This document shows, piece by piece, positions 23,574 through 38,381 of a stretch of DNA of 64,000 bases. This DNA is from Niallia taxi (lineage in GTDB: Bacteria; Bacillota; Bacilli; Bacillales; Cytobacillaceae), in NCBI RefSeq assembly GCF_032818155.1, contig NZ_CP102590.1, forward strand, positions 372,001 to 436,000, written 5' to 3'. The translations under genes were made by a program, and so were the position numbers. Under the pieces are notes generated by a model that had not been told where the DNA came from, did not search any database, and saw only the letters and a list, made by a program, of their open reading frames with translations. The number at the start of each line of letters is the position of its first letter. Positions within the stretch are counted from its first letter, which is position 1.

Positions 23574-23595
23574 TTTGCCTTTAAGGTAACAATCC
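23571..23595 (-). promoter_or_regulatory. Ribonucleic antiterminator (RAT) for LicT/BglG-type protein
   Basis: On the minus strand the sequence begins GGATTGTTAC and ends GGCAAAACC, the conserved halves of RAT elements. The apical stem CCT-TAA-AGG is shorter than in the standard 29-nt element, giving 25 nt overall. It starts within the stop codon of the antiterminator gene and runs into the terminator. Confidence 0.88.
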
Positions 23596-24431
23596 TAACA
23601 ACTTTCTTTCACAATTCGTTCTATATGAATAATTAAATAAAATTTTTCATCGATGGTTAGCTTATGATCATAATGCTCTAACAACATTTTTTCAATTTTG
23701 TGGGCACATTTTTCAGCTTCAGGAAATCTGTCGGCAATAATGCTTAACAGCTCCTTATCCTCAACTAAGCTTGGCTTTTGGGTTAATATCCGATAGCTGA
23801 AGAATTTCAAATGGGTAATAAAACGGCCATAGCTAATACTGTCCTCATCATAGCTGATTTTAAAATGGTATTTGACGATATTTAAAATATCGTTAATAAC
23901 AATCGTAATACTCGCTACGTCATTGACGTTATTATCGAGCTCAGCATTCACGAAATGCATTGCTATGAATGCAGCTTCATCGTCAAGTAAATCCAACTGA
24001 AACACTTGTCTGATTTTATCAACAGCTTTTTCTCCGACTTTAAATTCTTCTTTATATAATCGTTTAATATCCCAGTATAAGTCATTTTTAAGCTTAATTT
24101 GCTGGCGATAGCGCTCACATGTACTGTAAATATGATCTGTGAGAGTTACATAGATAGTATCGTTTATTTCTTTTCCAATTGTTCGTTTGGCATAATCAAT
24201 GATCTTCTCGCTGATATCCATATACTCAATTGGAATCTGTGATACAACCTCCTGGAACTTCTTCTTCACCGTTGAGTTATTTAAGGTATAAACTTTAATG
24301 TCTGATGCTGTTTCAATTTCATCGCCTTTAATCTTTTGAAAGGCGATCCCTTTGCCTGTAACAATAATATCGTTCAGTTCAGCATCTTTACATATAACAA
24401 CATTATTGTTGAGTACCTTATGTATCAACAA
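23595..24431 (-). CDS. licT: BglG/LicT-family transcription antiterminator
   Basis: A 278-residue cytoplasmic RNA-binding regulator. The N-terminal co-antiterminator domain (1-55) shows KVLNNNVV and GKGIAFQKIKGD, the RNA-contact blocks. PRD1 (about 65-170) and PRD2 (about 175-278) carry the regulatory histidines (DHIYSTCER, FVNAELD, YRILT, YLIIHIERI). When substrate is present and HPr phosphorylates it, it binds RAT RNA and prevents termination before bglP. It starts at one of two adjacent TTG codons behind GGGAGG. A second RAT-like element lies in its own leader at 24473-24517, implying autoregulation. Confidence 0.93.
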   Translation of the reverse strand: MLIHKVLNNNVVICKDAELNDIIVTGKGIAFQKIKGDEIETASDIKVYTLNNSTVKKKFQEVVSQIPIEYMDISEKIIDYAKRTIGKEINDTIYVTLTDHIYSTCERYRQQIKLKNDLYWDIKRLYKEEFKVGEKAVDKIRQVFQLDLLDDEAAFIAMHFVNAELDNNVNDVASITIVINDILNIVKYHFKISYDEDSISYGRFITHLKFFSYRILTQKPSLVEDKELLSIIADRFPEAEKCAHKIEKMLLEHYDHKLTIDEKFYLIIHIERIVKESC

Positions 24432-24472
24432 AACGGCGACCTCCCATATTTATTTTGCTTGAAACGTATGAT

Positions 24473-24517
24473 GGGTTTTGCCTAATAAACTATAAATATA
24501 GTATTAGTAACAATGCC
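24473..24517 (-). promoter_or_regulatory. RAT-like element in the leader of the antiterminator gene
   Basis: On the minus strand GGCATTGTTAC begins and GGCAAAACCC ends a hairpin whose apical stem is extended (CTAATA with TATTAG, inner ACTATA/TATAGT). The conserved halves match RAT elements apart from one inserted base. No terminator follows. Instead, the 3' half (CAAAACCCAT) can pair with ATGGG and GTTTTG around the ribosome site and TTG start. Confidence 0.55.
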
Positions 24518-24593
24518 ACTTATTGCTAAAATATATCGTAAACCGTTTTCATTGTCAAATGGAATATTCCGAAAAATCTATTTTACGAAAAAA

Positions 24594-24616
24594 AACAGCC
24601 CTTGTTTAAGGCTGTT
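24594..24616 (-). terminator. Terminator overlapping end of HNH gene
   Basis: AACAGCC pairs with GGCTGTT, with eight U following on the minus strand. The upstream arm contains the last codons and stop of the HNH gene, which insulates the antiterminator operon from it. Confidence 0.85.
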
Positions 24617-25583
24617 CTATTACTTCTTCTTCTTGGCTTTCTGTTTCTTCATTTGTGCCGATTGCTTTGCTCCAGATGTTTCTTTTATGCCATTTGAAGT
24701 ATACCTTATTGTCTTGGTTTAACTTAATTTTCTTTTTCGTCAATAACCCGTATTTTAAGTAATCTTCTTCATTAATCTCAGGTGAGATGTGGAGTCTGCC
24801 TTGACCGTCAAAGGCAATTTTACCGTTTTCGTATAAGGCGTCGTGATTACTGCATAGCAGGATACCGTTGTATGGATCGTTTCGTTCTTCGTTTGTGCTG
24901 TCTTTCCATGGTTTGGAGCGGCTTGCTTTCAGCAGCTCTGGCAATTCGATATCGCATAATGCACATTTGCAGCCCCATAAGGACATTAAGTCCTTCTTGA
25001 ATCGTTGCTGTCCTAAACGGATTTTTGTTTTCACTTCTGATTCTGTTTCGGCAATAACTGGTATTAATGTGTTATGCTCTGTTACTTTGATGTAATCCAT
25101 CGATAATTCGAGCTGCTCTGTATCTATTAAGTAAATATTTAATTCGCCAATCAGCTCTAACAACTTGATCGCTAGTTCTTCATTACATGGGTACAAATAG
25201 CCTGAATTTCCACTTGCATCGTCTTGGAAAGGTGAATATTTGATTGGAAGCAGTGGTGAAATAACGGCGAATTTCTCTTTTACATTTACCGATTTGTCCA
25301 GTTCATAATACTCGACCTCAACTAGGTACCCAGCTTCATCATCAAAAAGGTCTGATTGCAAAATTAGTGGCCTTGTTGCTTCCACACAATCCTCTTTCGC
25401 AATACTAATCGCCACAATATTTCCTTTCACATAATGAAAAATGCGGTCGCCCTTTTTCACTTCCTTCATTCTTTCCCACGAATGCTCGATACTGCCACCT
25501 TTAGCGATTTTCGGTGACCAGATTATTCCCATGTCCCTTACTTCATGGTATTTGCTTCCTTGCATGACTATATATGTGTTCAA
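24606..25583 (-). CDS. EVE-like domain fused to HNH endonuclease domain, HNH His replaced
   Basis: A 325-residue protein. The N-terminal half (about 1-160) has the feel of an EVE/YTH-type modified-base reader (YIVMQGSKY, WERMKEVKKGDRIFHYVKG). The C-terminal part (about 185-290) is an HNH_2-type nuclease domain with CKCALC zinc-type cysteines, LLKASRSKPW, NGILLCSNHDALYENGKI. Family members normally read ASHxxPW; here His is Arg222 (codon CGC), so the catalytic general-base position is lost. The start is TTG after AGGAGG. EVE-HNH fusions are modification-dependent (type IV) restriction enzymes; this copy may be inactive or act as a binder. Confidence 0.72.
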   Translation of the reverse strand: MNTYIVMQGSKYHEVRDMGIIWSPKIAKGGSIEHSWERMKEVKKGDRIFHYVKGNIVAISIAKEDCVEATRPLILQSDLFDDEAGYLVEVEYYELDKSVNVKEKFAVISPLLPIKYSPFQDDASGNSGYLYPCNEELAIKLLELIGELNIYLIDTEQLELSMDYIKVTEHNTLIPVIAETESEVKTKIRLGQQRFKKDLMSLWGCKCALCDIELPELLKASRSKPWKDSTNEERNDPYNGILLCSNHDALYENGKIAFDGQGRLHISPEINEEDYLKYGLLTKKKIKLNQDNKVYFKWHKRNIWSKAIGTNEETESQEEEVIEQP

Positions 25584-26288
25584 GCTAACTTCCTCCTGTA
25601 TATCTGCTTGCTTAAATCCTGTTATTTTCGTTTGTTAACATTACCTTTTATATATGCTTATTTTATTAATTTATTATTATATTGGATGCGTATAATTTTT
25701 TAGACTTTACTGAGTTAGTTTTTGTGCAGCTACATGTTGTGTGCAAACACGGATGCAGTAATTATATCTCGTACACTTGTTCCATAAGTAATTATAACAT
25801 AAGCTGTACTGATTATTGTCTCCTTACGTGCTTATATTCGACTTTTTTTGACATGGTTAGCAGATGGATTTTAATTGCTTAATACTTCTGTAATTTATTT
25901 CTTTTCAAGCGAGTCTCGACAGTAAGTGTCTTTATCTTTTCACTCGTGTATTCATATACATAAAAACATTTTATTGTTTCAGTATTATCAATGGTTTTAA
26001 TATAGTGACTATATATAGCCACTATTACTTCTACATTACAATTCCTATATCCTAAATGGCATAAATCAATGTGTTTTGCATACTATTTTTTAGGAAAGTG
26101 TCCGTCTAGTAAGTCACCTTACTAATTAATATGTAATGCCAGATTTTTTCGCAAAACCTATACAAAATTTTTGAAACACATTAAACTAGATGTAATTACG
26201 AGATAGTTCAGCTAAGGATAAGCTGCCAATCTTGTTCATTATTACATTTTAAATGGAATAGAAATTCAACTTTTACTGAGGGATATAT
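25584..26288. other. 700-bp gene-free spacer with palindromic repeat copy 1
   Basis: No credible gene on either strand. It contains one copy of the 24-bp palindrome at 26002-26025 and otherwise AT-rich sequence. A short plus-strand frame at about 25682-25882 lacks a ribosome site and was not called. Confidence 0.5.
26002..26025. repeat. Dispersed 24-bp palindrome, copy 1
   Basis: Arms ATAGTGAC and GCCACTAT around TATATATA. It matches copies at 38537, 50282 and 52426 in length and dyad geometry. It is not followed by a T-run, so it is not a standard terminator. Confidence 0.7.
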
Positions 26289-26726
26289 ATGACATCAAAA
26301 TCAAATAATTCAAAAAAGCAAAAAACTTCCGTTCCTCTGATAGCAAACAAAAGGCAGCAAGATATGGAAAATGACTACTTAACAAAACTAGAATTGCTTA
26401 TGTCTAAACAAGAAAACATCACCAATCAAGACAAAGCCAAAATAGTCTATGAATTAAGGAAGCAATATCCGGTAACAGCTCTTGTGAAGTACGTTAATAT
26501 TCCACGAAGCACTTATTATAACCTGCTGAAACAAATGAGCCGACCTGATAAGGATGCTGATATAAAGGTTGAAATACAAACAATTTTTGATGAGCATGAA
26601 GGCCGGTATGGCTACCGCCGAATTCGCGAGGAGCTTGCAAAGCGTGGACAAAACGTTAATCATAAGAAGGTTTTGCGAATCATGAAAATTTTAGGAATAA
26701 AAAGTTCTTCTAGCAGAAAAAAATAA
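26289..26726 (+). CDS. IS3/IS150-family transposase fragment lacking the DDE domain
   Basis: A 145-residue basic protein. Residues about 25-145 match the junction of OrfA and OrfB of IS150-type elements: the leucine-zipper-like NDYLTKLELLM, then KAKIVYELRKQYPV, IPRSTYYNLLKQM, and the HTH_21 block FDEHEGRYGYRRIREELAKR ending at KVLRIMKILGIKS. The integrase (DDE) domain that should follow is absent. The frame ends cleanly, has GAGGG before the ATG, and is followed by a terminator. No terminal inverted repeats were recognised. It is either a remnant or a domesticated DNA-binding protein. Confidence 0.75.
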   Translation: MTSKSNNSKKQKTSVPLIANKRQQDMENDYLTKLELLMSKQENITNQDKAKIVYELRKQYPVTALVKYVNIPRSTYYNLLKQMSRPDKDADIKVEIQTIFDEHEGRYGYRRIREELAKRGQNVNHKKVLRIMKILGIKSSSSRKK

Positions 26727-26751
26727 TCGTTTTTTTAAAATACCTTTAATA

Positions 26752-26790
26752 AAAAAAGTGAGTCCGATAAAATATCGAACTCACTTTTTT
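26752..26790. terminator. Bidirectional terminator
   Basis: AAAAAGTGAGT...ACTCACTTTTTTT with inner CGATA/TATCG. It ends both the IS3-fragment gene (plus) and the sulfatase operon (minus). Confidence 0.9.
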
Positions 26791-26792
26791 TG

Positions 26793-28289
26793 TTAGTGTG
26801 CTTTCGCTTCCCTGCTCGATCTTTTATGTGGAACAACGTCACAGGTTTGCTGGTAAAAATCTAGCATTTTTTCTTTTAAATCGAACAGAACGGAAGTTAA
26901 ATTTGGATCATTTATACGATTAGTAGTTTCTTCTGGATCTTGCTTAATGTCGTATAATTCATCTTCTTCGTACACTCTTTTTACATATTTATAGTCTTTT
27001 GTGCGAATCATCGTTGCTTTAGTGTGCTCTGGTCCTTCACTGCGCTGCATTTCACCTCTTGGCCAATAAAGCATTGATGTGTCTTCATTTGCAGGTGCAG
27101 ACTCATTGCAATGATATTCCCCATGCATTCTACCGCCTTCACAAAATACTGCTTCACGATGTTCTTCTTTTATTCCTGCAATTAATGGTGAAAGAGACTG
27201 TCCGAAATGGGTGTAATCTGCCTCTATCCCTGCCATTTCATGTACTGTCGCAGCCAAGTCCACAAGCTCGATTAATGCATCGCTGATTCCTGGTTTGATT
27301 TGGTGGTGTGCTGGTGGTTTAACGATAAATGGTACTCTTGTCAAACAATCTTGAAAAGTATTTTGCGTTTTTTCTACTAATCCATAATCGCCTGTAAAGT
27401 CACCATGATCGGAAAAGAAAAAGACAGCTGTATCATCATAAATCCCCGCCTCTTTTAGTGCTTGCATTAATAGTCCAAATTGGTAATCAACGCGAGCACA
27501 CATGCTGTAGTACACCGACCTTAGCTCAGTCCAGCGCTCCTCAGACCACCCTTCCATGTTATATCTTTCCCGCAGTCCTGCCAGCATTGACGGCATATCT
27601 TTTGAAAGGTCCTCTGCTTTGATACGGTTAGGCAGTTTTGATTTATCTATCATACTGTACCAAGGGTCCTCCACCGCATATGGGGGGTGGGGATAAAGTA
27701 TAGGCAAGTAAATGCAAAGCGGCTTATCCTCTGGCGCGTTTTTAATCTGTTCAATTGCGCCAAAGATATTGGCCCAATCACTGTCATAATAGCATTCTTC
27801 TCCTTGCTCCTTTTCCAGCTTGCCAACTAAAAACGAGTAATACGTGTCACTGCCAGGCAACCCCCGCCAGTTATCCTCACCACCTGTGAACATACCGCCA
27901 AACATCGGCTTTGGCTGATTTTCCGGTTCATACTTCATATCGCAATACGCATCAAAGCCATTTTCTGAAGGGACAAGATCATTTTTCCCACCCCACCAGA
28001 CATGATATCCATTATTCTTTAATGTCTTTAATAGTACAGGCTCCTCTTCGCTCATCATGTGATACATAGTGCGATGCCCTCTTACATGAGGATACCAGCC
28101 AAACATAAACGAACAGCGGCTTGGTGTACATACAGGATTTTGGCAAAATGCGTTACGAAAGGATACACCGTCCTCTCTTGTCATTTTATCTAAATTAGGA
28201 GTAACTGCAGCTGGGTTCCCCATATGGCCGAGCACGTCCCCACGCCATTGATCTGGATTAAACAAAATAATATGCGGCCTTTTCTTCAT
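26793..28289 (-). CDS. Sulfatase 1 (formylglycine-dependent, cytoplasmic)
   Basis: About 498 residues, type I sulfatase fold. The metal and substrate blocks include LFNPDQWRGD near the N-terminus, the maturation motif CTPSR with the formylglycine cysteine at position 54, and FFFSDHGDFTGDYGL near 300. There is no signal peptide, so it acts in the cytoplasm. The ATG at 28289 is better spaced from GGGAGG than one three codons upstream. It follows a GPH symporter gene by 24 bp in the same operon. It would remove sulfate from an imported sulfated sugar; the substrate is unknown. It depends on the FGE encoded at 35499. Confidence 0.9.
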   Translation of the reverse strand: MKKRPHIILFNPDQWRGDVLGHMGNPAAVTPNLDKMTREDGVSFRNAFCQNPVCTPSRCSFMFGWYPHVRGHRTMYHMMSEEEPVLLKTLKNNGYHVWWGGKNDLVPSENGFDAYCDMKYEPENQPKPMFGGMFTGGEDNWRGLPGSDTYYSFLVGKLEKEQGEECYYDSDWANIFGAIEQIKNAPEDKPLCIYLPILYPHPPYAVEDPWYSMIDKSKLPNRIKAEDLSKDMPSMLAGLRERYNMEGWSEERWTELRSVYYSMCARVDYQFGLLMQALKEAGIYDDTAVFFFSDHGDFTGDYGLVEKTQNTFQDCLTRVPFIVKPPAHHQIKPGISDALIELVDLAATVHEMAGIEADYTHFGQSLSPLIAGIKEEHREAVFCEGGRMHGEYHCNESAPANEDTSMLYWPRGEMQRSEGPEHTKATMIRTKDYKYVKRVYEEDELYDIKQDPEETTNRINDPNLTSVLFDLKEKMLDFYQQTCDVVPHKRSSREAKAH

Positions 28290-28313
28290 CGTAATCATTA
28301 CCCTCCCTTAAAT

Positions 28314-29702
28314 TTATAGAGCAGGTGGCTGGCTATTCATGTCTTTTTTATTTATTTTTGCTAGTATTTTAGAATGGTAGTCATTGTTTATCGGATAGAA
28401 CTTCATAAATACTAAGCCAAGTGCATAACCAATAATCGGAACAAGGAAGTACACATAGTTAATCATGCTCAATACTTCTGGAGGCTGCTGTGGTCCTGCA
28501 ACGTAACCGACAACACCAAGCAGTACACCAGACAAAAGTCCGCCGATTGCTGCTCCAACCTTATTAATAAAAATCATCATGGAATGGACTGTTGCAGAGC
28601 CGTTTATGCCTGTTTTAAGTTTTCCATAGTCCACACAGTCTGGTAGCATCATCCACGGCAATACAGTTGTGAATGGACCGAGGACTTTAACGAAAACTGA
28701 TAATACAAAGATTGTCATTACATATTCTGACGGTGTAAATAAAAGAATCGCTGATGGTATAATCGTTATAAAACAGCTGAAATTATACAGTGCTTTTTTT
28801 CCGTATTTTTTGGCGAGATAGGGTGTCACAAAATAAGCAGGAATAGCAAGAATTGTTCCCCAAATAAATAGCTGTGAATATAAATCAGGTCTGCCAATAT
28901 TATATTGCCAATAATAAATAGCAATCGATGAGGTGGACATTAAGGCTGCCATTTTAACTACAGTTGCAAGTAAAAGAATGGCAAGTGGTTTGTTTGTAGA
29001 GATTAATTTCAGCTGTTCTTTAATAGTAGGATGCTCTTTTTGTTCGACCATTGACCTTAGGTTGTTAATTTCTTTATTATCATGCTGCTTTGAACCGTAA
29101 GCACAAAGCCAATAGGAGAAAATAGACGCAATCGAGAACAAGAGTGTGGCAAAAAACCAGCCTTTCTGTCCACTTCCGAAAAAAGCTACTAATGGCAGCA
29201 CAGAGCCTGAAACTGCTAAGCTTCCAAGGTTACCCATAAAATTCTTTGCTGTAACAATCCAGTTTCTCTGTGTTGTTTCTTGACTTAACACCGCACTAAG
29301 TGCGTGATAAGGTATATTAACGATTGATGAAACAAAGGAATATCCGACGTATACGGCAATCGCATAGGCGATTTTACCTGTTGGACTTAATTCAGGTGCT
29401 GTAAACAGCAGCAATGTTGACATTGCCAGCAGTGGCGAGCCAAAGATTAACCATGGTCTATATGTGCCCCATCTGCTCCTCGTTCTATCTGCAAGCATAC
29501 CTAAAAAAGGATCTAAAAAGGCATCTATCAATCTAACAACCAAAAACACAGTACCAACAGCTGCAGGTGAAATCTTAAATACATCTGTGTAGAAAAACAT
29601 TAAAAAGGAAGTAGTAAATACGAATAATAAATTTGAACCAAACCCGCCAAAAGAATAAAATACAACCTCACTCTTCTTTACACTTGCATTTGCGCTTTGC
29701 AT
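28314..29702 (-). CDS. GPH-family sugar:cation symporter 1
   Basis: A 462-residue transporter with 12 predicted helices and glycoside-pentoside-hexuronide signatures: FGSNLLFVFTTSFLMFFYTDVF near the N-terminus, RLIDAFLDPFLGMLADRT and SRWGTYRPWLIFG. It moves a sugar or glycoside with a cation. The ribosome site AAGGGGG precedes the ATG. It is the first gene of a two-gene unit with sulfatase 1, and the 15-bp LacI-type operator lies 78 bp upstream. It is closely similar to the second GPH gene along its length (tandem paralogues). Pairing with a sulfatase suggests a sulfated substrate (inference). Confidence 0.9.
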   Translation of the reverse strand: MQSANASVKKSEVVFYSFGGFGSNLLFVFTTSFLMFFYTDVFKISPAAVGTVFLVVRLIDAFLDPFLGMLADRTRSRWGTYRPWLIFGSPLLAMSTLLLFTAPELSPTGKIAYAIAVYVGYSFVSSIVNIPYHALSAVLSQETTQRNWIVTAKNFMGNLGSLAVSGSVLPLVAFFGSGQKGWFFATLLFSIASIFSYWLCAYGSKQHDNKEINNLRSMVEQKEHPTIKEQLKLISTNKPLAILLLATVVKMAALMSTSSIAIYYWQYNIGRPDLYSQLFIWGTILAIPAYFVTPYLAKKYGKKALYNFSCFITIIPSAILLFTPSEYVMTIFVLSVFVKVLGPFTTVLPWMMLPDCVDYGKLKTGINGSATVHSMMIFINKVGAAIGGLLSGVLLGVVGYVAGPQQPPEVLSMINYVYFLVPIIGYALGLVFMKFYPINNDYHSKILAKINKKDMNSQPPAL

Positions 29703-29779
29703 ACGTTTCCCCCTTATGATTTCATACCGATTTATCCTAACTTACTTGAATTAGTACTTTAATCACCTCCACGCTTATA

Positions 29780-29794
29780 TAGAAGCGCTTCCAC
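29780..29794. promoter_or_regulatory. LacI-type operator, copy 1
   Basis: TAGAAGCGCTTCCAC, identical over 15 bp to three other sites in this locus. It stands upstream of the symporter 1/sulfatase 1 unit. Confidence 0.8.
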
Positions 29795-29860
29795 ACTTGT
29801 GTTGTAAGCACTTTCATTATTGGTGTTAGCACAAATTTATCAGAATAAACGCTCTTCTGC

Positions 29861-29900
29861 AATATCATTAAATTTATAGGGTATAACGAATTTTTATATA
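29861..29900. repeat. Duplicated upstream element, copy 1
   Basis: A 40-bp block containing TTATAGGGTATAACGAA. It matches 34291-34330 at about 35 of 40 positions without gaps, with weaker similarity 30 bp further left. Both copies lie upstream of minus-strand sulfatase-locus units. Confidence 0.7.
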
Positions 29901-29910
29901 CAAATAGTTT

Positions 29911-29928
29911 AAAGGAAGCGCTTTCTTT
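29911..29928. promoter_or_regulatory. cre-like site
   Basis: AAAGGAAGCGCTTTCTTT resembles the CcpA site but misses outer bases. It lies upstream of the symporter 1 unit. Confidence 0.35.
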
Positions 29929-29936
29929 CTTTCTCT

Positions 29937-29974
29937 CAAATAAGCCAGACTTAACAGAAAGTGTGGCTTATTTG
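29937..29974 (-). terminator. Hairpin after symporter 2
   Basis: CAAATAAGCCA pairs with TGGCTTATTTG across a 16-nt loop, just downstream of the symporter 2 stop. There is no U-run, so termination would be weak; it may stabilise the 3' end. Confidence 0.4.
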
Positions 29975-29982
29975 AGAAAATA

Positions 29983-31365
29983 TTAACTTACTACACTATT
30001 TGGATTCTCTTTTTCGTCTATTTCTTTTGCCATTTTAGCTTGTACCTCTGGCGTAATGCCATAAAATTTAAACGCAATTATAGCGATAATATAGCCAATA
30101 ACAGGGGCAAGGAAGTAAAGGTAGGTAATCATATTTAATGCTTCTGTTGATTGCTCCTGACCTGCCACATAACCGGCAGCGCCAAGGAGAGCACCAGCAA
30201 GAATCCCGCCAAGTGCTGCAGCTAATTTATTTGTAAACAGCATCATCGAGTGAATAGTTGCTGATCCGTTAATGCCTGTTTTCCATTTTCCATAATCAAC
30301 ACAGTCTGCAATCATTATCCATGGCAGAACACCTGATAACGGACCGAGAACCTTCACTAAAACAGATAGTGTAAAAATTTCCGCTATATTTTCATAGGAA
30401 GAGAATAACAAAATGACAAGCGGTAATATAGTTATCAAGCACGAAACAATAAACACTCTTTTCTTACCAAATTTGTTGACAAACCATGGAATAGACAGAA
30501 ACGCAGGAATTGATAACAATGTCCCCCAAATAAATAATTGGGAGTATAAATCCTCTCTGCCAATATTATATTGCCAGTAATAAATAGCAGTTTGCGAGTT
30601 GACAATTTGTGCTGTCATATTTGCAAATCCAGCAATTAATAATGCAAGTAACGGACCATTTTTTGAAATAATTTTCAGCTGTTCCTTAAGCGGAGGATGT
30701 CCGTCATGTGAATTCATTGCTTTTTGATTATTAACTTCTTCATTATCTGCATTTCTAGCACCGACTGCACAGAACCAATAGGATGCAATCGTTACGACAG
30801 AAAATGCTAATGTGGTGAAGAACCAGCCTTTTTCGCCACTGCCAAAGAAAGCGACGACAGGCAGTGCAGCACCAGAAATCAACAATGTTCCGAGGCTGCC
30901 CATAAGCTGTTTAGCTGTAACAATGACTGTCCGCTGACTTGGGTCCTGACTCAAAATTGGTGTTAAGGCATGATAAGGAATATTAACGATTGAAGAAACT
31001 AAAGAATAACCAACATATACAGCAATCGCATAAATGATTTTATTAGATGAACTTAAATCAGGTGCACTGAATAACAGCAATGTCATAGCTGCTAATAATG
31101 GCGAACCAAACATTAACCACGGACGATATGTACCCCACCTGCTTCTTGTTCTGTCTGCTAGCATACCAATAAATGGATCTAAAATTGCATCAATAACCCT
31201 AACAATCAAAAATACCGAACCTACTGCCAAAGGTGATATTTTAAATACATCTGTGTAGAAATACATTAAAAATGACGTTGTTAATGTGAATAAAAGATTG
31301 GAACCAAAACCGCCAAGTGAATAGAAAAATATATCGCTTTTTTGGGCTCTTGATTTTGTACTCAT
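29983..31365 (-). CDS. GPH-family sugar:cation symporter 2
   Basis: A 460-residue protein with 12 predicted helices, paralogous to symporter 1 (shared RSRWGTYRPWL, STIHSMMLFTNK versus STVHSMMIFINK, and loops throughout). It is transcribed alone from a promoter in which TTGTGG and TATAAT flank the LacI-type operator at 31400, so a bound repressor would block it directly. Two near-duplicate symporters in one locus suggest two related substrates, such as a sulfated and a non-sulfated sugar, or different chain lengths. This is inference. Confidence 0.9.
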   Translation of the reverse strand: MSTKSRAQKSDIFFYSLGGFGSNLLFTLTTSFLMYFYTDVFKISPLAVGSVFLIVRVIDAILDPFIGMLADRTRSRWGTYRPWLMFGSPLLAAMTLLLFSAPDLSSSNKIIYAIAVYVGYSLVSSIVNIPYHALTPILSQDPSQRTVIVTAKQLMGSLGTLLISGAALPVVAFFGSGEKGWFFTTLAFSVVTIASYWFCAVGARNADNEEVNNQKAMNSHDGHPPLKEQLKIISKNGPLLALLIAGFANMTAQIVNSQTAIYYWQYNIGREDLYSQLFIWGTLLSIPAFLSIPWFVNKFGKKRVFIVSCLITILPLVILLFSSYENIAEIFTLSVLVKVLGPLSGVLPWIMIADCVDYGKWKTGINGSATIHSMMLFTNKLAAALGGILAGALLGAAGYVAGQEQSTEALNMITYLYFLAPVIGYIIAIIAFKFYGITPEVQAKMAKEIDEKENPNSVVS

Positions 31366-31399
31366 CTGTTTTCCCTCCGTAAAGTTACATTATAAAGTA

Positions 31400-31414
31400 T
31401 AGAAGCGCTTCCAC
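31400..31414. promoter_or_regulatory. LacI-type operator, copy 2, inside a promoter
   Basis: TAGAAGCGCTTCCAC. On the minus strand TTGTGG (-35) and TATAAT (-10) are separated by 16 bp and the operator fills the -35 and spacer, a classic repression geometry for symporter 2. Confidence 0.85.
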
Positions 31415-31462
31415 AAATATTTACATAATGTGGAGACAGCAAAATTCTGCCTCCATCCTTTT

Positions 31463-32368
31463 TCAGTTTACAAATGCTCCCTCTTTGCTAACAAAGAAAT
31501 GGTACAATGCTCCATATAGGTTAGCGTCATTGCGGAAATGACAAGCAACAATACCCGGGTTTGCCATATGCATCGGGTTTGCCTGTTTAATTTCCCCCAC
31601 TGCCCACTTAATTCGCTCTAATACAATCCTTTGAGCACTGACACCACCGCCAATGGCAAATATCTCTGGGTCTAAAATATATTGAAGATTAAGGATTTGA
31701 CCTGCTACATGTATGCAGAATTCATCAAAAATTTTCATTGCTTCTACATCGCCATTGTTTATATAATTAAATACGGCCTCACCATCCGTTAAGTCATCAA
31801 GCTGCTTAACTTCCGCTATTCTTCGTACCATTAATGCCCCAGAGCCTAAAGCGCCCATAAAGCTTGTTTCTTTCGTGTTTGGATCTAAATTGCTCATAAC
31901 ATAGCTGATTTCCCCTGCTGAAAGATTCACTCCGCGATGCAGTTTTCCATCTAAAATAACTCCACCACCAACGCCGCTCCCAAGCACTAATACAACAGCA
32001 TCTTTTTTTCCTTTTATACTGCCAAGCCAAAGTTCAGCCAATGCCGCACATTTCCCATCGTTTTCCACAGTTGTTTCTATGTTATATCTGCTTTTTATCA
32101 TGCCAGCAAGATTTACCTCATGCAAAAATGGGAAGGAGCCACCATAATAGATAACTCCGCTATTAACATCCACTGTACCTGGACAGCTTATCGCAATCCC
32201 TTTGATGCTAGTTAAATCATGCTCTTCAATGATGGAAAATAAAGCTTCCTTAAAATCAGGCAGATTTGTTTTAACTGTCGGCTTTTTGTTTTTGGTGATA
32301 ATCGTTCCTGCAGAATTAAGCAGGGCATATTTAATAAATGTTCCTCCCATATCCATAACAAGATACAT
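31463..32368 (-). CDS. ROK-family sugar kinase without zinc motif
   Basis: About 301 residues from the ATG at 32368 (AAAGGATG upstream). It has the phosphate-1 motif MDMGGTFIKYALL, catalytic Asp in VENDGKCAALAE, LVLGSGVGGGVI and AGEISYVM. The usual ROK zinc cluster (GHxxxxxxxxxCxCGxxGCxE) is absent, as in the BglK-like branch. It phosphorylates a hexose, amino sugar or disaccharide with ATP. Its gene follows sulfatase 2 by 30 bp in one operon, so the natural reading is that it phosphorylates the sugar freed by desulfation. A transcriptional-repressor ROK is excluded because there is no HTH. Confidence 0.88.
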   Translation of the reverse strand: MYLVMDMGGTFIKYALLNSAGTIITKNKKPTVKTNLPDFKEALFSIIEEHDLTSIKGIAISCPGTVDVNSGVIYYGGSFPFLHEVNLAGMIKSRYNIETTVENDGKCAALAELWLGSIKGKKDAVVLVLGSGVGGGVILDGKLHRGVNLSAGEISYVMSNLDPNTKETSFMGALGSGALMVRRIAEVKQLDDLTDGEAVFNYINNGDVEAMKIFDEFCIHVAGQILNLQYILDPEIFAIGGGVSAQRIVLERIKWAVGEIKQANPMHMANPGIVACHFRNDANLYGALYHFFVSKEGAFVN

Positions 32369-32398
32369 TGTCATCATCCTTTCTTAGCAAAATTCCTG

Positions 32399-34177
32399 TT
32401 AGCTTGTTCTTCCTGCCAAGCCTGTAAAGTACTGGGCCATTGCTTTATGCTCCTTTTCATAAGTTGTCTCAATGAACTCATGGACAGTCTCTGTTGACAC
32501 TCCATCTAACGCTGACATTAAGACAAATTCTTCAAACTGGTTCAATAATTCAACGCGCTTTTCTTCTGGAGTAATATTCAATAATGCACGCAGCTGATTT
32601 TGGGCAGCCCTTTCCCATGGATGATTTGGAAGCACTAATAATTTTTCTTTTTTCCGAACCTCTTCTTTCTGCCTTTGTAGCTCTTCTGCTGTCATGTGGC
32701 CATCCTCTGGTATGCCTAATCGTGCGAATTGTTCTACAGGAGCATTATTTTTCCGCATTTGTGCAGCCATCTTTTCAATAAGCTGTAATTCTACTTCTAT
32801 ATTTTCAAGTTCTTCGATTTGGTTTGGATCATTATGAACATCGAAAAGCTTAGAACCAAATTGAAATGCATTCACAAAGCCGTCGCCTGCCTTAATTTTC
32901 ATTGTCTGGCAGCCCTTCGTAAAAGGAAACGGTTGTTGAATTTCAATGTTTTGCAGCTCTTCTGGTGCAAATGGCTGCCTCATATGTGTTGGCATCAATG
33001 TATATTCATAGAGTGGCTCATTTTTTGGTGCGACAGGTGCCCGCATGTATACATAATTACCATCTGTTATATTTACATGACCTCCATGGTATCCAAATAA
33101 TGCTGTTTCCCTTATAGGTACATCTGCTTGAATGGTTTGGCGTAGGGGCTGTCCATCCATATTGTCAGGCAGTGAAACACCAAAGAATTCGAGCAATGTT
33201 GGCGCTATATCAACTGTTTGTACAATCGACTGTCGTCTTTCCCCTGTAACGCCTACTCGCGGGTCCCAAACGAATAATGGTGTATGCGCAATTTCTTCAT
33301 AAACAGGCATCACACTTTTCGACCACCAGCCATGCTCTCCTAATAAATAGCCGTGATCTGTATTGACGATAAGCATCGTGTCTTTCCACATATCATTTTT
33401 GTCCATTAAATCAATTACTTGGCCTAAGTAATGGTCGCACATGCTCAATAATGCTGCATATTCGTACTTCCCATGTGAGACGACTTCTTCACCTTCCTGG
33501 ACAAAATAATATGGCGGCCAATCAAAGTGCTTACCACTATATTCATGAGGATAAAGTTCTTTGTAGTACGAATAAGAGAAAAATGGTTCATGCGGGTCAA
33601 ATGTTTCGAGCTGTAAAAACCAATTATCTTCCTCCTTATTCTTTTCAATAAATTGCATGCCCAAGTTGAATGTTGTAGTCTGCGGGTGATTTTGCTCTTC
33701 TTCAAAATAGGTCCGGTTAACTAAGTCCTGTCTGTACATATTACTACTCGCAAGGGACTTTGCTGTTTCTGTTTCCGGATAATCCGGGTCCTTAACATGC
33801 CCTTTCCATGGATCTCCCTCTTGTCCTCTAACTAATTCGAAGGAGTTGTATCTTGTATGGTAAGTTGCTCCCCCATCCTCCCAATAATGCTGATGATCTG
33901 TTACTAAATGGGTATAGACGCCATTTTTTTTCAAGATTTCAGGCATGGAATTGTCAAAAGGTTCAATTGGGCCCCAGCTGCGGTGCAGAAAATTGTATCT
34001 GCCTGTATGCAGCTCTCTTCTTGCCGGCATGCATGGCAAACTGCCTGCATAGGACTGATCAAACACTACTGTTTTTTCCCCTAGCTTTTTAAAATTAGGT
34101 GCATGGATCCAATCACATCCGTAGTTTGGAAGCATGTGTCTATTTAACGTATCAAACATCACCATTATGGCTCGCAT
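32399..34177 (-). CDS. Sulfatase 2 (formylglycine-dependent, cytoplasmic)
   Basis: A 592-residue sulfatase. N-terminal MVMFDTLNRH supplies metal ligands, the maturation motif is CMPAR with the formylglycine cysteine at position 49, and LIVNTDHGYLLGEHGWW near 275 completes the metal site. The long C-terminal helical tail (about 490-592, Glu/Lys-rich) is not typical of short sulfatases. There is no signal peptide, so it is cytoplasmic. It is only distantly similar to sulfatase 1, so different sulfate positions or sugars are likely. It is the first gene of the unit with the ROK kinase. Operator copy 3 is 27 bp upstream of its ATG. Confidence 0.9.
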   Translation of the reverse strand: MRAIMVMFDTLNRHMLPNYGCDWIHAPNFKKLGEKTVVFDQSYAGSLPCMPARRELHTGRYNFLHRSWGPIEPFDNSMPEILKKNGVYTHLVTDHQHYWEDGGATYHTRYNSFELVRGQEGDPWKGHVKDPDYPETETAKSLASSNMYRQDLVNRTYFEEEQNHPQTTTFNLGMQFIEKNKEEDNWFLQLETFDPHEPFFSYSYYKELYPHEYSGKHFDWPPYYFVQEGEEVVSHGKYEYAALLSMCDHYLGQVIDLMDKNDMWKDTMLIVNTDHGYLLGEHGWWSKSVMPVYEEIAHTPLFVWDPRVGVTGERRQSIVQTVDIAPTLLEFFGVSLPDNMDGQPLRQTIQADVPIRETALFGYHGGHVNITDGNYVYMRAPVAPKNEPLYEYTLMPTHMRQPFAPEELQNIEIQQPFPFTKGCQTMKIKAGDGFVNAFQFGSKLFDVHNDPNQIEELENIEVELQLIEKMAAQMRKNNAPVEQFARLGIPEDGHMTAEELQRQKEEVRKKEKLLVLPNHPWERAAQNQLRALLNITPEEKRVELLNQFEEFVLMSALDGVSTETVHEFIETTYEKEHKAMAQYFTGLAGRTS

Positions 34178-34203
34178 ATGTATCTCTCCTCTATTTTCAA
34201 ATG

Positions 34204-34218
34204 TAGAAGCGCTTCCAC
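34204..34218. promoter_or_regulatory. LacI-type operator, copy 3
   Basis: TAGAAGCGCTTCCAC, between the divergent sulfatase 2 and lacI-type genes, close to the sulfatase start. A cre-like TTGAAAGCGCTTAT lies 17 bp further out (34235-34248). Confidence 0.85.
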
Positions 34219-34234
34219 ATTTTAATGAATAAAT

Positions 34235-34248
34235 TTGAAAGCGCTTAT
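34235..34248. promoter_or_regulatory. cre-like site in sulfatase 2 promoter region
   Basis: TTGAAAGCGCTTAT resembles the CcpA consensus TGWAANCGNTNWCA except for the last positions. It would add glucose repression to the LacI control. Confidence 0.4.
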
Positions 34249-34290
34249 CGTTTTGTTATGTACAATTTATCAAAATTGTTAAACGCTTGC

Positions 34291-34330
34291 AATAACAATA
34301 TATTTATAGGGTATAACGAACTTTTATACA
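34291..34330. repeat. Duplicated upstream element, copy 2
   Basis: Contains TTATAGGGTATAACGAA like copy 1 at 29861-29900, same orientation relative to the controlled minus-strand genes. A shared activator site or promoter module is likely. Confidence 0.7.
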
Positions 34331-34375
34331 CGATTGACCTGTTCATGCTTTAATGATAAATTAACATTATTAATA

Positions 34376-34390
34376 TAGAAGCGCTTCCAC
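34376..34390. promoter_or_regulatory. LacI-type operator, copy 4 (autoregulatory)
   Basis: TAGAAGCGCTTCCAC, 54 bp before the TTG start of the LacI-type gene and directly after a TTAACA...TATTAATATAG stretch that could be its promoter. Confidence 0.85.
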
Positions 34391-34444
34391 AGTTCCCTTT
34401 TAAGGCTTCTATCTATCAATAAATATAAAAAAGTGGTGAGTATA

Positions 34445-35497
34445 TTGAAGGTATCTATCTATGATGTTGCAAATCTAGCAGGAGTTTCTATCTCCACTGT
34501 TTCTAGAGTACTAAATAAAAGTGGCTACACAAGCAGCAAAACAGAAAAAAAGGTAATGGATGCTGTGGAGAAGCTGAATTTTACACCAAGCTCCATCGCT
34601 CAAAATCTAGCGAATAATGAAACGAAACTAATTGGTCTTTATTTTCCGTTTCAAACCTCTTCTATTGAAGGCACATCCAATACATATTTACTTGAATTCA
34701 TTAATGGAGTTAACAAACTATTGATAAAGTATGGGTATCACCTCTTATTAATCAATGAAACAGCTACTAAAGAGCAAATTCAAGGAAATGATTGCCCTCC
34801 CCAGTATTACAGCTTTATTAAACAAAAGAAAATTGACGGACTCATATTGGGTGGAACCCCGCTTATCTGCGACGCCTTCCTGGAGCTTCTCCAATTAAAA
34901 ATGCCGATGGTCTATATTGGAGAGAAAACAGTCGACCATATTGGGTTAAATGTATATGCAAAGTACAAGCAATACAACAAAGACCTGCTAGATCATTTTA
35001 CTAGCCATCATCATAAACATATTGCCATCATCAGCACAGAGGAAAAAATAATCAAAAGCGTCACGCACGAATATTCAGCAGCAAATAAAGACTTGCTGCA
35101 AATTGATGTTCATAATCATACAGGCAGTCTTGAAGCTTATATCCAGTTATTAAATCATATTTTTAGTAAAGATGATAAGCCTACTGCCCTTTTAGTACAA
35201 GATATTTCCATCGTCCAGCAGACAATCAATTATTTAAACAATCTTCAATTAATGGTTCCACATGATGTATCAATTGCTACAATTGAGCATCGATTCGGTG
35301 ACGGAGAACAATGCTTTCCCGCTGTGACTAGTGTGTATGTTCCAGCCTTTCAAATGGGGATGGAAGCAGCAAGTCTTTTATTCCGTTATCTGCAGGGTAC
35401 TGTAGAATTTAATGAAGAAGTTCTTATAGATTCGACTATTATAGACCGAAAGTCAGTCATTCACCGAAACAACCTAACACAAGGGGAAGTGATATGA
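34445..35497 (+). CDS. LacI-family transcriptional regulator of the sulfatase locus
   Basis: About 350 residues. The N-terminal HTH reads VSIYDVANLAGVSISTVSRVLN with hinge helix SSIAQNLANN (about residues 1-56), followed by a periplasmic-binding-protein-like effector domain. The TTG at 34445 gives the normal LacI N-terminus; a GTG four codons upstream lacks spacing from the ribosome site. The operator half-site GAAGCG/CGCTTC is typical of LacI proteins, and four copies surround this gene, so it almost certainly controls the locus and itself. The effector is probably the imported or phosphorylated sugar. The FGE gene follows at once. Confidence 0.9.
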   Translation: MKVSIYDVANLAGVSISTVSRVLNKSGYTSSKTEKKVMDAVEKLNFTPSSIAQNLANNETKLIGLYFPFQTSSIEGTSNTYLLEFINGVNKLLIKYGYHLLLINETATKEQIQGNDCPPQYYSFIKQKKIDGLILGGTPLICDAFLELLQLKMPMVYIGEKTVDHIGLNVYAKYKQYNKDLLDHFTSHHHKHIAIISTEEKIIKSVTHEYSAANKDLLQIDVHNHTGSLEAYIQLLNHIFSKDDKPTALLVQDISIVQQTINYLNNLQLMVPHDVSIATIEHRFGDGEQCFPAVTSVYVPAFQMGMEAASLLFRYLQGTVEFNEEVLIDSTIIDRKSVIHRNNLTQGEVI

Positions 35498-35498
35498 A

Positions 35499-36458
35499 AT
35501 GAAGGAAATACAGTCATGCTGTGCAGTTCGGAGAAAAGAAACAGAAAGGAAAAGTATGCAAACATATGTTGAACTACCTGCAGCTAATCTGGATGTGAAG
35601 TTTAGAAATAAAATGGTCCAGTTACAAGGAGGTGAGTTTTTTATGGGGACAACAGAAAAGGAAGGGTTTCCAGCAGACGGTGAAGGTCCCGTCCGCAAAA
35701 TTGAGCTTGATTCCTTTCTAATAGATTCTTATTGTGTCACAAATGAAGAGTTTGCAGCATTTGTGGAGGATACGGGCTATGTAACAGAAGCCGAAAACTT
35801 CGGCTGGTCCTTTGTTTTTTATCTGTTCCTCTCACCGATACAGCTGAGGCAAACACCGCCTGTTCCCAATACGCCTTGGTGGCACGGTGTTAACGGAGCA
35901 TATTGGAAAGCACCTGAAGGTCCTGGCTCTCATATTGAAGATCGTATGAACCACCCTGTTGTGCATATTTCTTGGAATGATGCCAATGCATTTTCCCGCT
36001 GGGCAGGCAAGCGACTCCCTACTGAAGCCGAGTGGGAATATGCTGCCAGAGGCGGACTTGAAAGAAAAAAATATCCTTGGGGAGACGAACTAACACCAAA
36101 CGGCGAGCATTATTGCAATATATGGCAAGGTGTATTCCCAAGAATAAATACAAAGGAAGACGGCTATGCAGGAACTGCTCCGGCTCAGTCTTTCCCGCCG
36201 AACGGATACGGGCTGTATAATACTTCCGGCAATGTATGGGAATGGTGCTCCGACTGGTTTAGCAGAAGCATTCATGATCGAGGCGGACGGACAAATCCGC
36301 AAGGCCCTTTAAACGGGGAAACAAGAATTATGAGGGGTGGCTCCTACCTTTGTCATGAATCCTATTGCAATCGTTATCGTGTTGCTGCCCGGACCTCCAA
36401 TACACCAGACAGTTCATCTGGGCATCTTGGCTTTCGATGTGTTGCAGATGTTAAGTAA
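35499..36458 (+). CDS. Formylglycine-generating enzyme (sulfatase maturation, aerobic type)
   Basis: A 319-residue FGE/SUMF1 fold protein. It has GGEFFMGT near residue 45, WNDANAFSRWAGKRLPTEAEWE in the middle, TSGNVWEWCSDW, and the C-terminal core MRGGSYLC-HESYC-NRYRVAAR with the copper-binding active-site cysteines at 285 and 290, then GHLGFRC. It oxidises the Cys of CxPxR to formylglycine using O2. There is no signal peptide, so it works on sulfatases in the cytoplasm, matching the two sulfatases here. It overlaps the operon of the LacI regulator (1 bp gap), so it is induced together with its clients. Confidence 0.95.
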   Translation: MKEIQSCCAVRRKETERKSMQTYVELPAANLDVKFRNKMVQLQGGEFFMGTTEKEGFPADGEGPVRKIELDSFLIDSYCVTNEEFAAFVEDTGYVTEAENFGWSFVFYLFLSPIQLRQTPPVPNTPWWHGVNGAYWKAPEGPGSHIEDRMNHPVVHISWNDANAFSRWAGKRLPTEAEWEYAARGGLERKKYPWGDELTPNGEHYCNIWQGVFPRINTKEDGYAGTAPAQSFPPNGYGLYNTSGNVWEWCSDWFSRSIHDRGGRTNPQGPLNGETRIMRGGSYLCHESYCNRYRVAARTSNTPDSSSGHLGFRCVADVK

Positions 36459-36503
36459 TAGCTTCATTCTGGATAAATTACTTTTTAAGGTGGAGATTAT
36501 TAC

Positions 36504-37385
36504 GTGAATATAGAAAGTTTGAAAATGTTTTGCCTTGTTGTTGAGGAAGGCACGATTAGTCAGGCGGCTCGCTTAAGCTTTGTCACACAGCCAGCAGTGA
36601 CAAGGCAAATACGACAATTAGAGGAAGTCTATAAAGCACAGCTGTTTGAACGAAATGCCGGGAAATTAACGTTATCTAAAGCAGGTGAAATTCTCTATCC
36701 ATTTGCAAAGGAAATCGTAGAGTATTCCAAGCTTTCCTTTGCGGCAATCCAGGAATTGACCGGAAATGAGGAGATTGTCTTAAATATCGGGGCAAGCTCG
36801 ACGATCGGCGAATATTTATTGCCTGGTTTACTCGGAGAATTCAGCAGAAGCTATCCAGACTTAAAGTTTAGCCTTTCCATTGGCAACACCCCTACCATAT
36901 TGGCAAAACTTGAAAATAATGAAATTGACATTGCCTTTGTTGAAGGAGCTGTAGAAAATAAAGAGCTTATCCGCGAAAAGTTTGCAGATGATGAACTAAT
37001 TCTCATCACCTCCCCTGCTCATTTTTGGAGCAGCAGGGATCATATCAGTATCCAAGAGCTTTCTGAAGCAAAAATGATTTGGAGAGAAATAGATTCTGGT
37101 ACAAGACTAATTGTGGAAACTGCTTTAAACGAGCATGGTGTGCTAGCTAATATTAAAAGCGCGATGGAGCTAGGAAGCTATCAATCAATAAAAAGTGCTG
37201 TTGAAGCCGATTTAGGTGTCAGCATCATGCCAAGATTAACTGTAACAAAGGAATTAAAGAGCGGTACACTGCATGAAGTAAAGATTACTAATTTCCTTAT
37301 ATCCCGTGATTTATGGATGGTACAGAAATCCCATCGCTTTAAAAAATCTGGTTTGAAATATTTCGTCCAATTTATTCGCCAGTAA
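36504..37385 (+). CDS. LysR-family regulator (CysL-like)
   Basis: A 293-residue regulator with N-terminal winged HTH (about 1-60, GTISQAARLSFVTQPAVTRQIRQLE) and a substrate-binding co-inducer domain. It starts at GTG behind AAGGTGGAG. It resembles the CysL/YwfK subgroup that responds to sulfur or carbon metabolites. It lies between the FGE gene and a TauE/SafE exporter gene on the same strand with a terminator after it, so it probably controls the exporter. The position beside sulfatases fits a sensor of released sulfur oxyanion (inference). Confidence 0.88.
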   Translation: MNIESLKMFCLVVEEGTISQAARLSFVTQPAVTRQIRQLEEVYKAQLFERNAGKLTLSKAGEILYPFAKEIVEYSKLSFAAIQELTGNEEIVLNIGASSTIGEYLLPGLLGEFSRSYPDLKFSLSIGNTPTILAKLENNEIDIAFVEGAVENKELIREKFADDELILITSPAHFWSSRDHISIQELSEAKMIWREIDSGTRLIVETALNEHGVLANIKSAMELGSYQSIKSAVEADLGVSIMPRLTVTKELKSGTLHEVKITNFLISRDLWMVQKSHRFKKSGLKYFVQFIRQ

Positions 37386-37392
37386 ATTTTTC

Positions 37393-37426
37393 AGCAGGCG
37401 TTTTATCTAAAAACAGCCTGCTTTTT
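37393..37426 (+). terminator. Terminator after LysR gene
   Basis: AGCAGGC/GCCTGCT stem with a T-run. It separates the LysR gene from the exporter gene. Confidence 0.85.
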
Positions 37427-37466
37427 CCTATTAACTTTAGGTTTATATAATGGGTATAACAGTTGC

Positions 37467-37479
37467 TTATAGGCTATAA
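37467..37479. promoter_or_regulatory. Candidate LysR-type box before exporter
   Basis: TTATAG-G-CTATAA is a perfect dyad with the T-N11-A pattern of LysR boxes, 68 bp before the exporter start. Confidence 0.4.
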
Positions 37480-37547
37480 AATTATTCAAATATACAATCG
37501 TCCCCTCCTTTGATAGCCTTAAGGTATAAGAAAAAGGAGGAACGATG

Positions 37548-38381
37548 ATGGATATCCTAACAGGTTTATTATTGGTTATCATTGGCATTATTGCAGGTGG
37601 CTATGGAACAATTGTCGGTGCTGGTGGCGGCTTTATCTTTGTTCCTGCATTATTGCTGGTGTTTCAAATGAATCCTGCCCTTGCTGCTGGTTCTGGAATC
37701 GTGATTGTTTTAATTAACTCCCTATCAGGGGTAGTCGGCTATGCAAAACAAAAACGAATTCATTACCGCACAGGCATAACACTTAGTGCTGGTGCAATCC
37801 CTGGTTCTATCCTCGGTGTATGGCTTCTGCAAATCTACTCATCGAGTTACTTTTATGTTATTTTCGCAACAATATTAGTTGCTTTAGGAATATTTCTATT
37901 CGCCAAAAATTCTCCGTTTGCAAATCTAAGAAGAAAAAAAGCTCTTCAATTAGGGCAAGACGGCACGGCGAAGGATGAAATTGCTGCCGCAAGTGAAGAA
38001 TACGCTGTTTTGGAAGATGCTGCACATTTACCAATAGCCTACATCCTCCCAATTGGATTTCTGATGGGGGTGCTTTCCAGCTATTTAGGAATTGGTGGCG
38101 GTTGGCTACTTGTACCAATATTGATATATGGCTTTAAGGTTCCAACACATATCGCTACCGCAACGTCCATATTTTCACTTACCATTTATTCATCAGTAGG
38201 AGCTATATCGCAAATCTTTTATAGCAGTATTGATTGGCAAATTGTATTATGGGGTGGCTTCGGCGTACTAATCGGCTCCCAGCTTGGCGTACTGCTATCG
38301 AAAAAAATACCAGGCAAAGTCATATTGCAGATGCTGTCTGTGCTGTTAATTATTATTGGCTTTCGTTTGTATTTAAGCTAA
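37548..38381 (+). CDS. TauE/SafE-family anion exporter
   Basis: About 277 residues with eight or nine predicted helices in two repeats, each opening with the glycine-rich motif GTIVGAGGGFIFVPALLL or LGIGGGWLLVPILIYG. The central cytoplasmic loop (about 125-165) is hydrophilic. The ribosome site GGAGG stands before two ATG codons; the second is better spaced. The family exports sulfite, sulfonates or related anions. Its position with sulfatases, FGE and a CysL-like regulator points to export of sulfate or sulfite produced by desulfation, though other anions are possible. Confidence 0.88.
   Translation: MDILTGLLLVIIGIIAGGYGTIVGAGGGFIFVPALLLVFQMNPALAAGSGIVIVLINSLSGVVGYAKQKRIHYRTGITLSAGAIPGSILGVWLLQIYSSSYFYVIFATILVALGIFLFAKNSPFANLRRKKALQLGQDGTAKDEIAAASEEYAVLEDAAHLPIAYILPIGFLMGVLSSYLGIGGGWLLVPILIYGFKVPTHIATATSIFSLTIYSSVGAISQIFYSSIDWQIVLWGGFGVLIGSQLGVLLSKKIPGKVILQMLSVLLIIIGFRLYLS

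Follow-up and report, generated by a model that had tools for sequence, protein, structure and literature searches.

According to a review of carbohydrate sulfatases, the S1 enzymes of Bacteroides are mostly periplasmic and some are found at the cell surface; its main text nowhere uses the terms cytoplasm, intracellular, Firmicutes or Bifidobacterium (PMC10154612). In Streptococcus pneumoniae, an accessory island reported in 2012 carries a ROK protein, a cellobiose-type phosphotransferase system (PTS), a sulfatase, a sulfatase-modifying factor and a TauE-family protein, and assays there with 4-methylumbelliferyl sulfate as substrate showed no sulfatase activity (PMC3283741). The locus described here is a cluster of nine genes, at positions 26793-38381 of a 64,000-nucleotide stretch of Niallia taxi DNA (contig NZ_CP102590.1; the whole stretch is called the window), which encodes two formylglycine-type sulfatases (S1 and S2), a formylglycine-generating enzyme (FGE), two GPH-family sugar symporters (GPH1 and GPH2), a ROK-family kinase, LacI- and LysR-family regulators and a TauE/SafE-family membrane protein. 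It probably forms a self-contained regulon, controlled by LacI, by which the cell would grow on a small sugar that carries sulfate; all biochemical steps are predicted from sequence.

Gene content

All nine open reading frames are intact and open throughout, and the nine proteins pass the cut-offs of their Pfam families (sulfatase twice, MFS_2/GPH twice, ROK, LacI, FGE-sulfatase, LysR and TauE). This bears out the content given in a preliminary description of this DNA, namely two sulfatases with CTPSR and CMPAR motifs, an FGE with C285 and C290 and six further genes. On the minus strand S2, ROK, GPH2, GPH1 and S1 follow each other from 5' to 3', and LacI, FGE, LysR and TauE are on the divergent plus strand (Table 1). 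The same description found no glycoside hydrolase, which holds inside the cluster and fails for its surroundings, where the neighbouring licT-PTS-GH1 operon has a gene of glycoside hydrolase family 1 (GH1).

GPH1 and GPH2 are paralogues with 63% identity, both score above the TIGR00792 cut-off for GPH cation symporters, and the nearest solved structures of GPH2 are melibiose permeases. The ROK protein matches PF00480, has the DxGGT ATP-site motif and consists of the ROK domain alone, without a helix-turn-helix (HTH) domain, as expected of a ROK kinase. The CxCGxxGC zinc motif, which is common in ROK proteins, was not found in its sequence. Its best PDB match is 2gup, a ROK protein, followed by the beta-glucoside kinase 4htl, and it reaches none of the named ROK equivalog cut-offs, the nearest model being BglK (137.9 against 550).

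Shared operator-like site and proposed pathway

The gap between S2 and LacI was aligned among four genomes and the remaining gaps were read, by which a repeated near-palindrome of 14 bases, TAGAAGCGCTTCCA, was seen. Each of its four copies lies in the gap upstream of one putative transcription unit, and the units that bear it are GPH1-S1, GPH2, S2-ROK and LacI-FGE-LysR. Even if as many as two mismatches are allowed, the window holds no place beyond these four (8 matches, each place counted once per strand, against a shuffle mean of 0.37). The exact 14-mer has 4 copies in the 5.29-Mb genome, all in the cluster; one mismatch adds 1 place elsewhere, and the reversed pattern gives 0 matches in the same genome. 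Among 13 Niallia genomes it occurs in 4 (with 4, 4, 4 and 2 copies), which are exactly those with a window-type cluster, and 14/14 copies lie in cluster gaps. A dedicated LacI regulon is likely, with the cluster's own repressor as the putative binder of the sites. Gene families and the shared putative site agree with the earlier view of one co-regulated set for import, desulfation and phosphorylation, with a gene of an anion-exporter family alongside.

When the sugar is absent, LacI would bind the four TAGAAGCGCTTCCA sites and silence the four units. When it is present, the GPH symporters would bring the sulfated sugar in intact, FGE would turn the active-site cysteine of S2 (and of S1) into formylglycine in the cytoplasm, S2 would cut the sulfate ester, and the ROK kinase would phosphorylate the freed sugar, which could then enter central metabolism. 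TauE, probably under LysR, would export the released sulfur anion, both the direction and the anion being presumed. S1 and GPH1 may be an extension that deals with a second sulfated form of the sugar or with sulfate at a second position. Since the regulon is without downstream enzymes, the product of the ROK kinase should be a common intermediate. The substrate may be a sulfated mono- or disaccharide, and a sulfated hexose or beta-glucoside is the best guess.

Sulfatases and their maturation

Both sulfatases have the CxPxR/CxAxR maturation motif. Among the best 120 homologues listed for each protein, to which all homologue counts in this section refer, CTPSR is present in 120/120 for S1, and S2 homologues have CMPAR in 117/120 and CIPAR in 3/120. 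The first active-site stretch begins at about residue 9 in S1 and S2, too close to the start for a signal peptide to precede it. Its aspartate is residue 9 in 102/120 S2 homologues (10 do not fit the motif and 8 start elsewhere), and 8-10 residues precede the motif in 106/120 S1 homologues (5 without motif fit, 9 starting elsewhere). Up to the nearest upstream in-frame stop, only 3 codons are available for S1 and 26 for S2, and the highest mean hydropathy of 12 residues within the first 40 is 0.66 for S1, 0.88 for S2 and 0.53 for FGE. A cytoplasmic location of both sulfatases is well supported by these features, and the short conserved N-termini, upstream stops and low hydropathy sustain the proposal that both sulfatases and FGE are without signal peptides and that maturation and desulfation would be intracellular.

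S1 and S2 have the sulfatase fold, and their fold neighbours, among which are phosphonate hydrolases, are 11-27% identical to them. The S2 profile matches the GlcNAc-6-sulfatase 5g2v (GlcNAc, N-acetylglucosamine; E 1.9e-29), SpAS1 (2.4e-29) and a phosphonate monoester hydrolase (PMH) in the PDB in a near tie; at a stricter limit this search against the PDB gives no match. An assignment of the sugar from solved structures was rejected, the neighbours being so distant and tied. An identity as choline sulfatase was also rejected, with TIGR03417 scores of 153.2 for S1 and 108.7 for S2, far under the cut-off of 433.45. S2 has a helical C-terminal extension at about residues 490-592, which is found in relatives of about 590 amino acids and missing from those of about 490. 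S1 has GKND at residues 105-107, which the alignment pairs with GKMH of the solved sulfatase 7oz8, and D107 is invariant across 43 aligned rows.

Cys285 and Cys290 of FGE lie within GGSYLCHESYC, and this cysteine pattern is found in 118/120 homologues. The best PDB match is the solved FGE 5nxl (E 2.6e-128), and the FGE start codon closely follows the LacI stop codon. The cluster FGE is the only PF03781 match in the genome, where no anaerobic maturase was found with TIGR03942 at 1e-20. PF00884 has four matches there at 1e-8: S1, S2 and two frames of 650 and 665 amino acids outside the cluster, with the length of LtaS-type proteins. With a sole PF03781 gene, no TIGR03942 match and few PF00884 genes, S1 and S2 are likely the clients of this FGE, and the route is expected to depend on oxygen. 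FGE also has a Cys-Cys pair at residues 7-8 (35517-35522); CCxxxR stands ahead of the domain in 104/120 homologues, in a tail that is otherwise variable. A role of this pair in copper pickup or as a pseudo-substrate motif is a guess.

Conservation

The ratio of nonsynonymous to synonymous substitution rates (dN/dS) is 0.04-0.14 for the nine genes against genome G006, and 0.05-0.13 against genome G007 for five of six genes, the synonymous rate (dS) of LysR being saturated. These ratios indicate purifying selection and argue that the cluster is not a product of chance. All nine genes are kept in G006 and in Niallia taxi M5HDSG1-1 (from here on called N. taxi), where S2 is 95% identical and the order of the nine genes is that of the window. 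The order of the core, which is LacI-FGE-LysR on one side and S2-ROK-GPH2 on the other, is kept in G006, G002 and G007. The preliminary description treated the nine genes as one conserved unit, which has to be given up, since the G007 locus is without S1, GPH1 and TauE (the GPH1 probe matches there at 62% only, which is paralogue level) and locus L045, from another genome, has an anaerobic sulfatase-maturating enzyme (anSME) in the place of FGE and no ROK match. The cluster as such is real and coherent; it is under selection and seems to be regulated as a whole.

S2 has a patchy distribution. Counting the window's own genome, matches are found in 6/41 relatives (1e-20), 9/193 family genomes (1e-140), 8/397 order genomes (1e-130) and 2/398 class genomes (1e-150). 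S1 matches 1/398 class genomes at 1e-170, counted in the same way, and has no match in G886. S1 and S2 homologues apparently occur together in six cases, and S2 and FGE in seven, among the matches listed, which is weak evidence. G014, G015 and G033 supply three further PF00884 matches, in surroundings (L035-L037) to which none of the cluster probes matched, and at another place (L034) an FGE stands beside another sulfatase.

The tract with the bgl operon and S1 (about 16365-28298) is nearly identical in G006, with dS of 0.02-0.05. In the remaining cluster genes dS is 0.23-0.39, which suggests that this tract was recently exchanged.

Table 1. Features of the cluster and its neighbour, in window coordinates
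Feature	Position	Strand	Remarks
S1, 501-aa formylglycine-type sulfatase	26793..28298	-	CTPSR at residue 57; no signal peptide seen; accessory
GPH1, GPH-family sugar symporter	28314..29702	-	TIGR00792 369.7 bits (cut-off 231.35); accessory
Operator-like site TAGAAGCGCTTCCA, upstream of GPH1-S1	29780..29793	.	14-mer search
GPH2, GPH-family sugar symporter	29983..31365	-	TIGR00792 380.1 bits (cut-off 231.35); core
Operator-like site TAGAAGCGCTTCCA, upstream of GPH2	31400..31413	.	14-mer search
ROK-family sugar kinase, 304 aa	31463..32377	-	PF00480; DxGGT at residue 9
S2, 592-aa formylglycine-type sulfatase	32399..34177	-	CMPAR at residue 49; core
Operator-like site TAGAAGCGCTTCCA, upstream of S2-ROK	34204..34217	.	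14-mer search
Operator-like site TAGAAGCGCTTCCA, upstream of LacI-FGE-LysR	34376..34389	.	14-mer search
LacI-family repressor	34433..35497	+	PF00356, PF13377; likely (predicted) binder of the four sites
FGE, aerobic formylglycine-generating enzyme	35499..36458	+	PF03781 287.4 bits (cut-off 23.3); C285/C290
LysR-family regulator	36504..37385	+	Pfam cut-off passed
TauE/SafE-family membrane protein, presumed anion exporter	37545..38381	+	PF01925 169.6 bits; accessory
licT - beta-glucoside PTS - GH1 operon (6-phospho-beta-glucosidase type), neighbour	20135-24431	-	context only; without 14-mer

At the cluster edge there is an HTH_21-type open reading frame (26289-26726), as in IS3-like transposases, which is kept in G006 and N. 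taxi.

S2 relatives in other operons

Twenty-three loci with S2 relatives, the window among them, were read over 11.8-21.5 kb each; several end at contig ends, and several of the probes were drawn from these same loci. The set excludes L028, a second S2 copy beside L027, and L017 and L012 denote one and the same place. Of the 23 loci, 15 have a maturase, which is FGE in 13, anSME in 6 and both in 4. In these last four the two maturases are near one sulfatase (L014, 7293-12635; L015, 6852-12191; L048, 8204-15468; L047, 3842-14059, with anSME in pieces in L047), so that oxygen-dependent and oxygen-independent maturation are, by gene content, predicted side by side.

Transporters of anion families are TauE in 7/23 loci, a ChrA pair in 5/23 (weak in L022) and SulP in 1/23; 10/23 have none of them. 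TauE and ChrA are never in the same locus, and LysR (at least 51% identity) is found in 8 loci, all 7 with TauE and L011, and in none with ChrA. The 7 TauE loci amount to about 5 independent cases, because the window, L010 and L012 are near-identical Niallia clusters. The ChrA pairs (chromate transporter family) of L013, L014, L015, L022 and L046 stand where other clusters have TauE, which suggests a role in sulfate export.

The sulfatase tree has 37 rows, 11 of its 34 inner branches are open, and the locus contexts broadly follow it. The window's clade has 8 rows (100/99), with GPH in all 4 whose surroundings were read. Other clades are two with beta-glucoside PTS (6 rows; 4 rows including Lachnospira, 100/99), an iol/MFS pair (100/100) and an Opp-type ABC pair (100/100), and the sulfatase copy of L047 stands alone.

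In L047 (5511-18198) an S2 relative (53% identity) has a PTS IIB gene on one side and a UlaG gene on the other, all in one orientation and followed by UlaD-, UlaE- and UlaF-type genes, and FGE, LysR and TauE are neighbours of this ula operon sulfatase. UlaG exceeds the cut-off of 306 with a score of 653, and the PTS IIC protein scores 751 against 583 for the general model, which is reached, and 336 against 380 for the ascorbate IIC model, which is not. In L046 (3-14883) an S2 relative (59%) is flanked on one side by TctC-type transporter genes and LacI and on the other by a ChrA pair and FGE. Next comes another LacI gene, and after it the genes for IolG, IolC, methylmalonate-semialdehyde dehydrogenase and IolD. 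As this second LacI gene precedes them, the iol genes could form a unit of their own. From these positions inside a ula operon and beside an iol operon, ascorbate 2-sulfate is the predicted substrate in L047 and L046 is a candidate inositol sulfate route. No bacterial work on ascorbate 2-sulfate was found in the open-licence literature searched. L045 resembles the window cluster (S2 78%, LacI 63%, LysR 74%, TauE 69%); a HAD hydrolase gene and pieces of genes of glycoside hydrolase family 3 (GH3) follow its GPH gene, and its genome has one other PF00884 match.

These loci could represent a portable module for cytoplasmic desulfation, made of an S2-family sulfatase, FGE and/or anSME, and either TauE together with LysR or a pair of ChrA genes, which is plugged into different carbon pathways. 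Each transporter would import its sugar still sulfated, with ascorbate 2-sulfate in L047, inositol sulfates in L046 and ChrA as the sulfate exporter there. This idea is put forward tentatively, at somewhat less than an even chance.

Alternative explanations

Several observations weigh against a LacI-controlled route for a sulfated sugar. In the N. taxi assembly (L017/L012) both sulfatases are broken, S2 being in two frames and S1 having an internal stop, and the other cluster genes are open. TauE is missing from the G007 locus, and in the window no copy of the 14-mer precedes its gene. The core of the site, GAAGCGCTTC, resembles the cre elements of CcpA, so that CcpA could bind the 14-mer. Of the 23 S2 loci, 8 show no maturase over the length that was read, which contig ends cut short in some of them. 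S1 and S2 do not reach the NCBIfam sulfatase equivalog cut-offs, and with fold neighbours as distant as those described above, phosphonate hydrolases included, the predicted specificity for sulfate esters is less than certain. That the enzymes are PMH-like hydrolases of phosphonates or phosphodiesters, instead of sulfatases, is very improbable all the same: the PehA/PMH identity (NF045661) was rejected with scores of 147.6 for S1 and 107.9 for S2, far under the cut-off of 900, and 13/23 S2 loci have TauE, ChrA or SulP genes.

The cluster could instead free sulfate for assimilation, the sugar not being used for carbon. Sulfatases often serve sulfur nutrition, and the LysR protein does score against the YeiE and CysB-family models, though far under their cut-offs; as the kinase and two sugar symporters carry the operator-like site, a gene of an exporter family would serve to get rid of the anion and an S2 relative is located inside a ula carbon operon, such scavenging is distinctly unlikely. 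A substrate identity of N-acetylglucosamine 6-sulfate, from keratan sulfate or mucin, would agree with 5g2v as the top PDB match of the S2 profile, and Bacillus circulans has a Keratanase II. We consider it unlikely, given that 5g2v and SpAS1 tie within noise and that the regulon has no hexosaminidase gene, the genome itself not having been searched for keratanase or GlcNAc genes.

The sulfated substrate could also be a beta-glucoside handled together with the licT-PTS-GH1 operon, with S2 desulfating the glycoside and GH1 splitting it. A beta-glucoside-type PTS is found in 9/23 S2 loci (in L022 at only 51% over 448 amino acids; the window stretch was taken from 24000, its own PTS excluded), a GH1 gene accompanies the S2 relative in L014 and L026, and in L030 as judged from the first residues only, and the GH3 gene pieces of L045 lie beside GPH-S2. 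The ROK kinase, moreover, is nearest to BglK and has a beta-glucoside kinase as second PDB match, and the operon adjoins the cluster in G006 too. This adjacency is weak evidence, because the tract shared with S1 is nearly identical there; the stretches from N. taxi and G007 show no such operon next to the cluster, the window S2 falls outside the PTS clades of the tree, and the GH3 genes of L045 are in pieces. A common pathway with this operon thus appears possible and, on balance, somewhat unlikely. As a member of the regulon the bgl operon was rejected, having no copy of the 14-mer.

Comparison with known systems

A cytoplasmic route as proposed for the window would keep both sugar and sulfate from competitors; it would depend on transporters that accept sulfated sugars and on a way out for the anion. 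With its small size and self-contained make-up, the regulon lends itself to testing as a whole in a laboratory Bacillus. The wider module is the most interesting part, for which small compounds suffice as probes, and the ula and iol loci hint at what TauE and ChrA proteins may do in the cell. The form with GPH, ROK and FGE, and the plug-in pattern across carbon operons, were not found in the open-licence literature searched.

The S1 carbohydrate sulfatases of Bacteroides have the fold and the formylglycine motif in common with the window enzymes, which differ in being cytoplasmic by sequence. Choline sulfatase BetC and the PMHs, which are cytoplasmic and formylglycine-dependent, have the same fold too, and the window enzymes are set apart by low model scores and a sugar-transport context. 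Bifidobacterium breve UCC2003 reportedly has ats clusters for GlcNAc-6-sulfate, in work of Egan from 2016, by which the sulfated monosaccharide is imported and desulfated in the cytoplasm; unlike the window, these are said to use an anaerobic maturase and another transporter. Cytoplasmic desulfation is already known as an idea, and bacterial FGE is cytoplasmic as a rule.

The layout is therefore less unusual than the preliminary description supposed, a Firmicute island with PTS, sulfatase, maturase and TauE having been on record since 2012 (PMC3283741). The S. pneumoniae island resembles the window in joining a sugar transporter, a sulfatase, its own maturase and a TauE-family protein in a Firmicute. 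It differs in having a PTS, whereas the genes with the shared 14-mer include GPH symporters and no PTS, and in a ROK protein judged to be an HTH repressor, whereas the window has a ROK protein of kinase length (304 amino acids) and a separate LacI (PMC3283741).

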